Origin: Flavobacteriales bacterium
GTDB taxonomy: Bacteria > Bacteroidota > Bacteroidia > Flavobacteriales_D > Sanyastnellaceae
Direction of reading: 5' to 3'
Assembly (NCBI GenBank): GCA_947488195.1
Contig: CANKYR010000014.1
Location: 1 to 32,391 of the forward strand
DNA length: 32,391 bases
The notes below the pieces were generated by a model. The model had not been told where the DNA came from. It saw nothing but the letters and a program-made list of their open reading frames with translations, and searched no databases. Shown here piece by piece: positions 1-28,675 of this stretch. The stretch's first letter is position 1. Each line of letters starts with the position of its first letter. The position numbers and the translations under genes are program-made.

Positions 1-571
1 CTTCGAACCAAGCGGTTTCCATTTCATCTAATGAATATTCAAATTGAAAATGCGAAAGCATTTTTTTGTGCTTTTCAACAAGCGTATTATACTTCTCAAT
101 GAAATTTTCAGAAAGAATGTCTCCAATTCGTAAACCGTTACGACCGGTTTTGTCCATATAAGTTGGGCCAATTCCTTTCAGGGTAGATCCAATTTTCGAT
201 TTTCCTTTTTCAGCTTCTGACGCTGCATCTAGAAGTTTGTGTGTTGGGAGAATGAGATGCGCTTTTTTCGAAATAAGAAGTCGCGCAGCTACATCAACAT
301 TTTTTGCTTTGAGTTTTTCGATTTCCGTAGCGAAAACGATAGGGTCAATAACAACTCCGTTTCCAACGATATTAGTCACATGCTCGTGAAAAATTCCACT
401 AGGAATGGTGTGAAGAACGTGTTTTGTTCCATTGAATTCAAGTGTATGGCCGGCGTTTGGTCCACCTTGAAATCTGGCTACGATGTCATATTTCGGAGTT
501 AATACATCGACAATTTTTCCTTTTCCTTCGTCGCCCCATTGAAGGCCTAACAATACGTCTACTTTGGTCAT
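1..571 (-). CDS. purA: Adenylosuccinate synthase, N-terminal part (cut by the window edge)
   Basis: PurA joins IMP and aspartate using GTP to make adenylosuccinate, the first committed step from IMP to AMP, in the cytoplasm. About 190 N-terminal residues are visible. The start reads MTKVDVLLGLQWGDEGKGK, the glycine-rich GTP-binding loop, with the family's catalytic Asp at residue 14. GGPNAGHT follows with the catalytic His at 42, and KGIGPTYMDK occurs further on. The ATG at 571-569 gives the normal PurA beginning. The C-terminal half lies beyond the left edge. A -7-like element (588-595) sits just upstream and overlaps the end of the next gene, so purA probably has its own promoter. Identification is essentially certain. 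Confidence 0.97.
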   Translation of the reverse strand, partial: MTKVDVLLGLQWGDEGKGKIVDVLTPKYDIVARFQGGPNAGHTLEFNGTKHVLHTIPSGIFHEHVTNIVGNGVVIDPIVFATEIEKLKAKNVDVAARLLISKKAHLILPTHKLLDAASEAEKGKSKIGSTLKGIGPTYMDKTGRNGLRIGDILSENFIEKYNTLVEKHKKMLSHFQFEYSLDEMETAWFE

Positions 572-19824: not shown

Positions 19825-20529
19825 ATGAATAAAGTTGATTTACTTGTCATTTCTGCGCATCCAGACGACGCTGAAATTAGTGCGGCCGGAACAATTATTA
19901 AATCTGTTAAGGAAGGCAAAACTGTGGCGTTGGTAGATCTCACACAAGGTGAGCTTGGTACAAGGGGTAATGCTGAATTACGAATGGCTGAAGCAGAGAA
20001 TGCTTCTCGAATTATGGGAACTCATTTTAGAGAAAATTTGAAAATGTCAGATTGCTTTTTCACAGATACTCCTGAAAACAAAATGCTGGTGATTGACGCT
20101 ATTCGAAAGTACAGACCTGAAATAGTTTTCACGAACTCACTGCGTGATCGTCACCCAGATCATGCGCGAGCTGCCAAATTAGTTGCGGATTGTTGCTTTT
20201 ATGCAGGACTTCCGAAAATTGTAACGAATCACGAAGCATGGCGTCCACGTGCATTGTATCATTTCAATCAGGATTATTACAACACCCCTGATTTCGTCGT
20301 TGACATTACGGAACACATGGATCAGAAAATCGAAGCTCTGAAGGCTTTTTCGAGTCAGTTTTTCGATCCGAATGTGGAAGAGCCGAAGACACCCATTTCA
20401 GGAAAGGAGTTCTTCGATTTCGTAAAAGGCAGAGCCATGGATTTTGGGCGTTTTGCCGGATACGAATACGGCGAGGGATTTGTTGCATCGCGACCAATTG
20501 GAATGCGCGATGTTTTCAACTTAGACTGA
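19825..20529 (+). CDS. bshB1: Bacillithiol biosynthesis deacetylase BshB1
   Basis: BshB1 removes the acetyl group from GlcNAc-malate to give GlcN-malate, the second step in bacillithiol synthesis. The protein has 234 residues of the LmbE/PIG-L fold. The zinc-binding AHPDDAE (His12, Asp15) and DRHPDHARAA (His113) motifs are present, as are the subgroup signatures LTQGELGTRG and ASRIMGTHFRENL. It stands alone in a divergent arrangement with the M23 gene; bshA and bshC are not in the window. A GAGATTTG (19813-19820) four bases before the ATG is a weak -7 candidate. Its last nine bases overlap the convergent flippase gene. Confidence 0.93.
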   Translation: MNKVDLLVISAHPDDAEISAAGTIIKSVKEGKTVALVDLTQGELGTRGNAELRMAEAENASRIMGTHFRENLKMSDCFFTDTPENKMLVIDAIRKYRPEIVFTNSLRDRHPDHARAAKLVADCCFYAGLPKIVTNHEAWRPRALYHFNQDYYNTPDFVVDITEHMDQKIEALKAFSSQFFDPNVEEPKTPISGKEFFDFVKGRAMDFGRFAGYEYGEGFVASRPIGMRDVFNLD

Positions 20530-21717
20530 GAATTCTTTTTTCTTCAATCTAAAGAAAAGAAAAATCTGTACGAGACTCTGTGAAATAAAGGCAGTCGATG
20601 CCGCTATACACGCGCCGTTTAAATGATCGGTTGGAATGAGCAAAGAGGAGCAAAGTATCGCAACAGCGAACCCTGTTAATGCAGAGTAAAAGTTGTATTG
20701 ATGAAGGCCTCTTCCAGAAAATAAATGTGCAAATGAAACAGTAATCGTGTTCGCAACAATTCCGGGTATTAGAAAGAAAAAACCTTCTTTAATAAACGCG
20801 ATGTCGAAGTCAACGAATGGAGCCAGCCAGCTGTTAGGAATAACCAAAAAGCAAAGTGTGCCGAAGACAGTTGTTGTTATTCCAAGCACTAAATAGCGTT
20901 TGGTTAGCAAAAGGTGTTCGCTGAAGTCTGACGATTGCGCTACGCGAGATGCAAGAATGGAAGATAAGCTTTTCACGACTGACCATAGCGCTTCGGCTAC
21001 ATACATAAGAATGGAAAAAACGCCAGTGAAAATTTTTCCTTCGGCGCCGAGATTTTCTAGAAAATACAGGTAAGATCGTTGATTTCCTAAATGGAAAATA
21101 TTCCCCAATTGTGCATAGCCACCAAGCTTTGCTGTTTGCTGTAAATCGTTTTTCGATAAATCGAAACGCATCTTTTTCCAGACTTGTGGAGTGTGATAAA
21201 ATCCCACAGAAGCAGTGACAATAAATGAAAGAAGTTGTCCGGAAATGAAGGCCATTATTCCCCAATCAGTGGTGAAATAAAAACACGTAACGAAGAACAA
21301 TGAAGAACCAGATTGAGTGAAAAGTAGAATTTGATAAGACCCTATTTTTTCTTTTCCAAGTAAGATCATTTGTTGCAATACGAAGAGAGATTGTAAGATT
21401 CCAAGGAGTAGCGTAAATCCGATGAAAGGAGCACCTAAGGCGAGCAATAAAACAAAGGTTATACTGGCGCTTATAACGATCCAAATAATAGACGGCAATG
21501 CAATTTTGTTTTCACCAATTCGCGGGATTAAATAGATGAGCGCTCCTCCGCCTATAAACTGACTCAGAGTTGCAACGATAAGAATTCCGAAATTGATTAA
21601 CGCAATAGTTCCCTGTCCTTCAACTTGAACGAAATGCAAATTCAATAGCACTAAGAGCAAGGCCGAAATCATTCCAAACGCGCGATTCAATATGGAAAGA
21701 AATTCTACTTTCTTCAT
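20521..21717 (-). CDS. Polysaccharide flippase-like membrane protein (Wzx/MATE superfamily)
   Basis: The protein has 398 residues and is almost entirely hydrophobic, with about 10-12 membrane helices separated by short charged loops. The N-terminal LSILNRAFGMISALLLVLL and LSQFIGGGALIYLIPRIGE segments resemble O-antigen and polysaccharide exporters. It is somewhat shorter than typical Wzx (about 420-480). It probably translocates an undecaprenyl-linked glycan or another glycolipid across the inner membrane (inference). Its ATG overlaps the stop of the GT4 gene (ATGA), so the two form a pair for surface glycan synthesis. No polymerase or other glycan genes are adjacent. Confidence 0.75.
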   Translation of the reverse strand: MKKVEFLSILNRAFGMISALLLVLLNLHFVQVEGQGTIALINFGILIVATLSQFIGGGALIYLIPRIGENKIALPSIIWIVISASITFVLLLALGAPFIGFTLLLGILQSLFVLQQMILLGKEKIGSYQILLFTQSGSSLFFVTCFYFTTDWGIMAFISGQLLSFIVTASVGFYHTPQVWKKMRFDLSKNDLQQTAKLGGYAQLGNIFHLGNQRSYLYFLENLGAEGKIFTGVFSILMYVAEALWSVVKSLSSILASRVAQSSDFSEHLLLTKRYLVLGITTTVFGTLCFLVIPNSWLAPFVDFDIAFIKEGFFFLIPGIVANTITVSFAHLFSGRGLHQYNFYSALTGFAVAILCSSLLIPTDHLNGACIAASTAFISQSLVQIFLFFRLKKKEFSV

Positions 21718-25672: not shown

Positions 25673-25698
25673 CAAAAGTGGGGATTATTCCTTTACAA
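25673..25698 (-). promoter_or_regulatory. Possible panB promoter
   Basis: The minus strand reads TTG (25698-25696), a 15-base spacer and CACTTTTG (25680-25673), one mismatch from TAnnTTTG. It overlaps the end of the upstream CotH gene and leaves about 20 bases to the panB ATG. Spacer and mismatch make it a weak call. Confidence 0.35.
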
Positions 25699-28675
25699 AT
25701 ATTTTTTTCGCGACAATTCCTTTTGAGCTATCTGAAATTTGAATGGCATACATTCCAAAGCTGAATTGCGAAACATCGATTCGAGTGGAACCTTGATTTT
25801 GCATATTTCCGGTGTGTACCAATTTTCCTTGGATATCAAAGATCGAATAAGTCAGTCCTCTGAATTGGGCTTCGGTAACAACCTGAATGTAGTCTTGTGC
25901 AGGTGAAGGGTATATTTTAAATACAGTGTCCTCCTCTTCATTTACATTCACATTCGATTGGAAATGCGCTGTGAATTGCGCAGTATTCAATGAGATATTT
26001 CCTTCCCAAACAGAATCTAAAATATCATTGATTAAACTGCTGCTATCCCAATAAGCGAATTCATAGCCTGGATTGGCAATGGCTTCAATTTTCACAGGAA
26101 CACCATCGAAATAAACTCCAGTCCAAGGATATTCTGTAGGTTGAATGGTGCTGATATGAATTTTCCCAGAACCAAGAGGCAACACATCTAGGGTTACATC
26201 GACTTGCTGCGGTAATGCAAATCTGTTTTGAATGTGATCGCGAACTTGTTCCGTTCTGCACAACAACTCCGATTGGAATGTGAGGTGATTGTTGTAGAAA
26301 TAATCCATTTGTCCGGGTAAGTTGTTCGGATCCCCCCAGCGCTGATATTCATTTGGCATTTCGGGCGCATTGAGATTGAAGTATCTGTTTTCAACAGCAA
26401 TTAATCTTTCAGGTCGGTAGTTTGTGTTCATTAAATCGGCGAATCGATTGATGAAGTAGTGTTTGTATTGGGTGTTTTGAATGCTTTGTAACCAAATATT
26501 GATATACGGATTGTCTGTGCTTTGTCCAGACATGTAATCGATGTGATTAAAGTAGCAATCTGTCCAAGCATTTGGATTTAGGGCAAGCTCCATGTCAATA
26601 GTTGCGAATCTCCATCTATTGTCTGTTACATTGGATCTATAAATCTTAATGTTATTTCCCGGCCAATCGACGTTACCCATCCACGATTCCGAAATAATAT
26701 AATCGGCGTAATACTTCATGTCGAAATGTTGATCGGCTTCGCTCCAATATGTCGGGCTTGCTTCGTTCAATGCATTGAAAGCACTGTATGAATTCCAAAA
26801 ATTATCAGCAGAACCTTCCACCGCGCGCAGCATTCCTCCGTACCAATAACTCAACGACAGAATTTCAACGGAGTCTTTGTTTGCGCCTTCGTTTTCTTTA
26901 AACATTTCAGAATTGTACTTTTCACGAAGCTCGTAGAGTCCAAAGTATTGTCCGTTGATATAAACTGTTGCCGGGCGATAAGCGCTGTAATAGGCGTTGG
27001 CGCCACGACACATAAGTTCAGCTTGACAAGCTTCTTTGTATGGAAGAGCCAAATATTGATTACTTCCATTGCGAAGATAAAAATCAGAGTACTTATTTCT
27101 ATTTGGTCTTCCTGGAATGATCACTTCATTTACTGCGGTTTCACCCAAAACGCTATGGGCAAGTTCCAACCGGAAAGAGTGCTGCGGTTGAGAGCGGCTT
27201 CCACCCGCGCCACCGTCGATTTGCATTCCTGTGTTTTGAGAAAACACCAGCGGATGCCCAGGAATAGAATCGAAATAATCTACATGCGCATTACGCAACC
27301 AATCCTGATCCCAATGATCAAATATTCCATCGTTACCATACAAATTCGCATTGTCTGTTGTGATCGAAAGGATGGGAGTGGTGTGACTAATGTTGAAAAG
27401 GAAAGATGCTGAGGTTATATTGCTTGGAATGTAATTGGGTTTAAAAGCACGTGCCTTTAATATTTTCGATTGGAAGAAAAATATGGGCGTACCATCATAG
27501 ATAGGAGAGTTAAAATCAGGATCGCTTCCGTCTGTCGTGTATCGAATGGTGGAAGGAGCCGTGTTTAAGTCTAGAATGGAAACAGAAAATGGCGCAGCGT
27601 ATATACCAGGGTTGTGGTCGAACAAAGGAGCAATTGCATTCCCCAATGAAGGCGCTCCGTTGTTGCTTGCTTCAGGTGTTGGAGTATTGAAAAGAGAGTT
27701 TGAGTTGGATCCGTTGGGGTAGCGGCCAATGCTCATGTCTACAGTTTGACATTTTATAATTAAACTGTTTTCAAGGTTTTGAGCAGGATTGAATAAAAAC
27801 AACGTGTCGCCGGATCCTGAAATTTTGAAATTCGTATGAAATTGATTTCCAGCGCTTGTAATAAAGTCAGAACTCATGGCCGTTTCCGAAACATTTTTCA
27901 ATGCTAATTCCACATAAGTATAATTCACTGCCTCTGTAGCCGCTACCTGAAAACCAAGAGAAGTAATAGGTCCAGCTGAAAGCCCAGCGGCAGTTAGCTC
28001 AACTGCGGGAATAAGCATTTGATTGCGAGCGCTCCAATACCAATTTCCATAAGGCGCAGGGTAGTCGGTATAGCCATTTTGAATGGTTCCGGTGCCTATG
28101 GTTATGCCATTTAATTTCATGTTCGGCCGTTGGAACGCAAGAGTTCCTTGACTGTATGAACATGAGCCCTCGCTCCCGTCGTTAAAGCTGTAGGTGGTTG
28201 AGCCGTATGCCGTAGCTGTTTGCATGAAAGAGGAGTTGGAAATGTATCCCGTGTTGCTGTATGAACAAACATTAATGGCAATACTCGAAAGGCCATCCCA
28301 TTGAAATGGGGTAGTGAAAATGTGGGTGTTCCAGCCGACTACCGGAGTGAAAGACCCCGAATTTATTGCAGTGGTGAAAGGGGTCGTTGTAAATCTATTT
28401 TTATCGCTGCAGAACACAATTAAAAATGCACCAGGATTTAAGTTGTAATGTGGGAAAACCCATTGTGCGGGTTCGTTGGAATTGTCTGTTAAGGAATATC
28501 CGAACAAATCAACTGCTGATGTTCCTGCGTTATACAACTCAATCCAATCTTCGTATTCACCGTCTTCATCGGCAATGGTTTGATAGTTCTTGTTGCTGCC
28601 TTCATTGATGACGATTTGCGACCAAGTGAAATTTGAAATGAAGAAGGTTGTGAAAATTAAAGCTATTTCTTTCAT
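25685..28675 (-). CDS. Large secreted CotH-kinase/lamin-tail protein with type IX sorting domain
   Basis: The protein has 996 residues. Domains in order: signal peptide (1-20); lamin-tail domain, first part (20-94: [26 protein letters not shown]); an inserted beta-sandwich (about 95-273); lamin-tail, second part (about 276-340: [24 protein letters not shown]). A chitobiase C-terminal-like domain follows (about 344-428: [12 protein letters not shown]). Then come a CotH-like kinase domain (about 430-820: [29 protein letters not shown]), an InlB-repeat-like domain (825-905) and a type IX secretion C-terminal sorting domain (918-996: [19 protein letters not shown]). It should cross the outer membrane by T9SS and end on the surface or outside. 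CotH folds phosphorylate proteins; the substrate here is unknown. It lies 12 bases behind the GDSL hydrolase gene. Confidence 0.88.

Follow-up and report, generated by a model that had tools for sequence, protein, structure and literature searches.

Circular permutation, domain insertion, and proteins that join a lamin tail domain (LTD) to a CotH domain are each already known. Natural circular permutations have mostly come to light in scattered protein pairs. A C-terminal sorting tail marks proteins for T9SS export. In Bacillus subtilis, CotH acts as a kinase and phosphorylates CotB, a coat protein (PMC7821199). An LTD is combined with CotH in Cthe_0239 of Clostridium thermocellum, in which LTD, LTD, Fn3, and CotH domains follow one another (PMC6083626).

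The window analyzed here is a stretch of 32,391 nucleotides from a Flavobacteriales bacterium (contig CANKYR010000014.1), and its minus strand encodes a CotH protein of 996 amino acids (25685..28675). The protein is very probably a T9SS-secreted CotH-type protein in which a loop of the LTD, just before the strand HTNFKIS, holds a complete β-sandwich of an unnamed Bacteroidota domain family in circularly permuted form. We refer to this sandwich by its motifs as the YPAPYG/GWNTH domain, to its two halves as A and B, and to copies with the order A-B as canonical.

Domain architecture of the CotH protein

The open reading frame and its translation, together with Pfam matches, delimit the following features, all on the minus strand. 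A putative N-terminal signal peptide is followed by an LTD in two parts, residues 19–94 (28394..28621) and residues 279–340 (HTNFKIS..., 27656..27841), which are separated by a β-sandwich of 184 residues (residues 95–278, 27842..28393). Next come a CHB_HEX_C_1/Fn3_assoc region (residues 356–424, 27404..27610; Pfam E 7.6e-12 and 9.3e-12) and a CotH kinase-like domain (residues 492–818, 26222..27202; E 7.6e-21) that scores 75.4 bits with PF08757 against a gathering cut-off of 23.8. The protein ends with a T9SS C-terminal sorting domain (residues 921–994, 25694..25915; Pfam E 1.2e-13), which scores 51.6 bits with PF18962 and 34.7 bits with TIGR04183 (cut-off 23). Residues 102–355 are without any match in the Pfam scan.

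In an alignment of CotH proteins, D670 (in DWPxNN) and D694 (in IDxE) of the CotH domain are conserved. The IDxE motif (window 26588–26596, residues 694–696), near the presumed metal site, characterizes the CotH clade with the permuted sandwich, and most other CotHs of the set have DxD. Five orthologues of 1300–1365 amino acids (L083, L086, L094, L104, L107) carry two extra LTDs C-terminal to the CotH domain. The neighboring genes (GDSL, panB, rlu, trxB, aroA) give no functional clue, being conserved in close relatives only. Amid better-known genes of the window there is also an ORF of 398 amino acids without a Pfam match (20521–21717, minus strand).

The interrupted lamin tail domain

In the intact protein the Pfam LTD profile (PF00932) matches residues 32–101 over positions 22–74 of its 109, with 43.0 bits, and the match ends in the middle of the profile. 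When residues 95–278 are excised, the match runs from position 22 to 101 with 54.6 bits; the gathering cut-off of 34.3 bits is exceeded with and without the insert. Since the match extends and its score rises upon excision, the flanks are one LTD interrupted by 184 residues.

An AlphaFold2 model of residues 18–346, based on an alignment with 71 orthologues, has a pLDDT of 93.0 and a pTM of 0.78. In it, one loop of a lamin-like LTD carries a jelly-roll-like sandwich. Lamin A/C (1ifr) aligns to the model over its residues 1..291 (VIA-align; Z 8.9, rmsd 3.0, 98 of 113 residues), and because the first flank has just 77 residues against 98 aligned, this match requires both flanks. The flanks are thus predicted to form a lamin-type Ig fold jointly, and profile and model both support an insertion into a loop of the LTD. 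The original prediction, that the two flanks make one lamin tail domain, is borne out by the continuity of the profile after excision and by their common alignment to lamin A/C. It had placed the insert at 27857–28393, which is the correct place but falls five residues short at one end (27842–28393 as measured).

The structure 4q1z (BT_1938, DUF4876) also resembles the model of residues 18–346, with 129 residues aligned at Z 8.7. The aligned residues are spread over positions 105..389 of its chain, so in this Bacteroides protein, too, an LTD-like domain may be interrupted by a large insert.

Order of the two halves in the insert

A search with half-profiles divides the insert into a B half (residues 95–188, ending in RPNMKL; 28112..28393), which is the C-terminal half in all canonical copies, and an A half (residues 189–278, NGITIGTG...ELTAAG...; 27842..28111), which is the N-terminal half in all canonical copies. 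The order was measured against a canonical profile made from 30 free-standing family copies (alignment A2). Read linearly, the insert matches profile positions 98–192 first, at insert residues 2–95 with 77.7 bits, and profile positions 17–100 second, at insert residues 97–179 with 85.1 bits. The insert doubled head-to-tail gives a single unbroken match over positions 17–191 with 157.7 bits, close to the two half scores added together, and none of the doubled controls (three shuffles and the reversal) exceeds 1.4 bits against the same profile. Doubling gains at least 55 bits in 92/92 aligned orthologous inserts. These comparisons support a circular permutation of the insert relative to its family. 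The permutation had been proposed from an assumed family order, with a head-to-tail alignment to the family as the check; the swap of the halves is now measured, and the check yields one continuous match.

The swapped order taken alone would also allow two half-domains of different source, joined by chance and without a common fold. This is very improbable: the doubled insert joins in register, with no break in the profile between positions 17 and 191, 72 orthologues conserve the two halves jointly and keep the canonical cysteine pair, and the model folds with high confidence. The pair in question, Cys137 and Cys172, is invariant in permuted and canonical forms and may form a disulfide.

Distribution of the two orders

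The 92 orthologous rows served to build half-profiles for B (residues 95–188) and A (residues 189–278), which were then used to scan the fetched loci in every reading frame. All orthologous CotHs have the arrangement N-terminal LTD part, B, A, C-terminal LTD part (100 loci in plain form, five with further LTDs behind CotH, and one frame-split). Because the locus sets overlap in part, the distinct permuted genes number closer to 90 than to 100 (92 distinct rows). In the remaining frames with the domain the order is A-B without exception (43/43), with the halves directly adjacent or sharing a few residues. A phylum-wide sample likewise contains A-B only, apart from three orthologues, and some of its proteins have two or three copies. 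There are 59 non-redundant copies outside an LTD and every one is A-B, which agrees with the order given in the original prediction (YPAPYG half first, GWNTH half second); no A-B copy lies inside an LTD among the fetched loci. Other members of the family do share the linear order of the insert, which had been named as an observation against a permutation, yet all of them are orthologues with the same nested insert, as befits a fixed permutation.

A misassembly, or a local rearrangement in a single genome, had also been considered as the cause of the swapped order, and the genome of the window is indeed fragmented (159 contigs). However, the identical order is found in eight other genomes of the genus and in many genes of other families and orders, with open frames and 42–100% identity. 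As the order recurs in many separately assembled genomes, this explanation is rejected, and its residual probability is negligible.

Several loci found in the scans deserve mention. Three very large secreted proteins (L227, L228, L212) each contain the canonical A-B domain two or three times and are possible sources of duplications. Scans of viral contigs for canonical copies found one locus (L149:1054-6252), which encodes a surface-type protein of 1732 amino acids with a canonical A-B domain; the contig, filed as viral in IMG/VR, is either host DNA or carries a phage-borne surface gene. In three MAG records titled Chryseobacterium gleum (L031, L032, L033) there are copies 80–100% identical to the insert described here, and the titles look wrong.

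Predicted structure of the permuted sandwich

In the model, DSSP assigns one strand to residues 186–188, the last of B, and another to residues 191–193, the first of A (E169–171 and E174–176 in model numbering), and the two are joined by a turn of N189 and G190. The stretch around this joint (residues 183–193, 28097..28129) is where the native ends appear to be fused: residues 186–193 would correspond to the two ends of canonical copies, closed by a two-residue turn. A canonical copy (L149) gave a weak model (pLDDT 62) that has the same strand and helix elements in rotated order. In this weak model E39–45, H47–52, E58–67, and E77–85 correspond to E198–205, H207–212, E218–229, and E237–245 of the permuted form, and E109–121 and E126–134 correspond to E97–109 and E114–122.

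The motif PAPYGNWYW (residues 206–214, 28034..28060) falls in invariant columns of alignment A1, being identical in 72/72 aligned orthologues, and is a candidate functional surface.

A Foldseek search of the PDB with the model finds nothing at E 0.001 or better, and neither the profile of the insert nor that of the LTD plus insert detects a solved relative in the PDB by sequence. The canonical profile has two PDB matches, both to IcmE/DotG; they cover 16 residues only and were rejected as spurious.

Origin of the permutation

A domain tree was built from 32 permuted domains, re-ordered in silico, and 59 canonical ones; it is midpoint-rooted and has no outgroup. The permuted domains form one clade (100/100), which under midpoint rooting lies inside the canonical ones. 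The CotH-domain tree likewise unites the hosts of the permuted domain in one clade (100/100). The single clade in both trees supports one permutation, followed by descent or by transfer along with the CotH gene. With midpoint rooting only, A-B and B-A may also be a sister split.

It is conceivable, though improbable, that the B-A order came first and A-B was derived from it. Such a polarity would suit a tree without an outgroup in which the permuted copies occupy one side of one branch, and it is the B-A form that aligns in sequence with CBM35/CBM6 modules. On the other hand, the A-B copies show far greater diversity and are spread over many families and protein contexts, those with B-A are confined to one CotH clade, and midpoint rooting places B-A among A-B. 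Starting from an A-B ancestor, the permutation could have arisen if an A-B copy was duplicated and then partly lost. Profile columns 98–100 are matched at both ends of the insert, and there are about nine extra residues at the joint, features that are suggestive of duplication and subsequent trimming.

Occupants of the LTD loop

The CotH paralogues in related genomes show three states of the LTD, namely a plain LTD with 6–16 residues between the parts, an LTD with a domain that we call G, and an LTD with the permuted domain; a few are without an N-terminal LTD. Domain G has about 185 residues and is placed between the same residues as the permuted domain (SGKNR ... HTNF). Its carriers are L181, L190, L192, and L233–L238, and further matches to the G profile lie outside LTDs (L165, L170, L188). 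No Pfam model covers this domain (YDDGFVAYLNGVEIAR ... GENVLAIQVHN). Homology of G to the A-B domain was considered and rejected, since profile-profile comparison gives it a probability of 0.1 (with a G profile of three rows). As the same slot of the LTD holds either G or the permuted domain and these are unrelated, the loop is, as judged from sequence comparison, a socket that members of two domain families occupy.

The CotH tree groups the carriers of G with those of the permuted domain in one clade (100/99). Within it the permuted CotHs are nested among G carriers with weak support (80/42), and the residues of the slot are identical. There is thus about an even chance that the insert replaced an older domain G rather than entering an empty loop, a reading that refines the one preferred here; the nesting on which it draws is weak, and the G carriers themselves form one group in 20% of bootstrap trees. 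A broader proposal, which we hold to be evenly balanced between true and false, is that the loop is an exchangeable socket, that the sandwich could enter it only after a one-time permutation fitted its ends, and that permutation and nesting were one coupled event. If this is true, the LTD is a natural display scaffold.

Proposed function

Under the preferred reading, a permuted A-B sandwich nested in the LTD, the native ends would be closed by the two-residue turn, and the FETGL|TTVF loop would be the site of the new ends, which lead into the LTD. The permuted form may have been kept because it presents two neighboring ends to the LTD loop and exposes a different face of the sandwich. Attached via a loop on another side, the sandwich would leave the face of its native ends free. 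The LTD may act as a scaffold, and the nested sandwich may be a module that binds a ligand or a surface, perhaps glycans, and positions the CotH domain to act on a bound extracellular substrate. We infer a binding role from a weak fold resemblance of the model (Z 5–6) and from the conservation of the motif.

Comparison with known systems

The fold resemblance is to CBM35/CBM6 modules (2w47, 4qb2, 1uxz), which are two-sheet sandwiches like the insert and align with it end-to-end (VIA-align; Z 5.2–5.9 for such modules overall, and Z 5.5–5.8 over 103–109 aligned residues for these three). They differ from it in sequence, with 9–14% identity, and their Z values are in the range in which unrelated sandwiches score, so that the resemblance is too weak to fix a function. 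The LTD of the CotH protein has the profile match and the fold of the lamin tail domain (PF00932; 1ifr) and differs from it by a domain of 184 residues in one loop, where the plain LTDs of CotH paralogues have 6–16 residues. Domain annotation overlooks this nesting: Pfam gives a truncated LTD only and leaves the insert blank.

Cthe_0239 (PMC6083626) has an LTD, an Fn3-like domain, and CotH in one protein, as does the protein described here. In contrast, it is cellulosomal rather than a T9SS protein, and the nested domain is absent from its listed architecture. The G-type CotH paralogues share the slot and the host protein family with the permuted CotHs but fill the slot with a domain for which no homology with the A-B domain was detected. 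The findings point to the LTD loop as a site that may accept grafts of whole domains.

The closest relatives of the insert itself are the canonical YPAPYG/GWNTH domains of secreted Bacteroidota proteins, which have both halves, the motifs, and the cysteine pair in common with it, as reflected in the 157.7 bits of the doubled insert. They are A-B and free-standing and adjoin PKD, GEVED, Laminin_G_3, and Ig_7 domains, whereas the insert is B-A and nested in an LTD. The YPAPYG/GWNTH domain has no model in Pfam or NCBIfam, and the present work defines it as an unannotated but widespread secreted domain of the Bacteroidota. The literature searched on LTD nesting or on Bacteroidota CotH proteins does not describe the nested permuted form, and the conserved combination of permutation and nesting seems to be undescribed. 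Here a single family provides about 100 sequences in permuted form and dozens in the unpermuted one, a clean rule by which the domain is permuted only when nested, one clade of permuted copies, and a sister group with another domain in the socket. This makes it directly testable why permutations become fixed.
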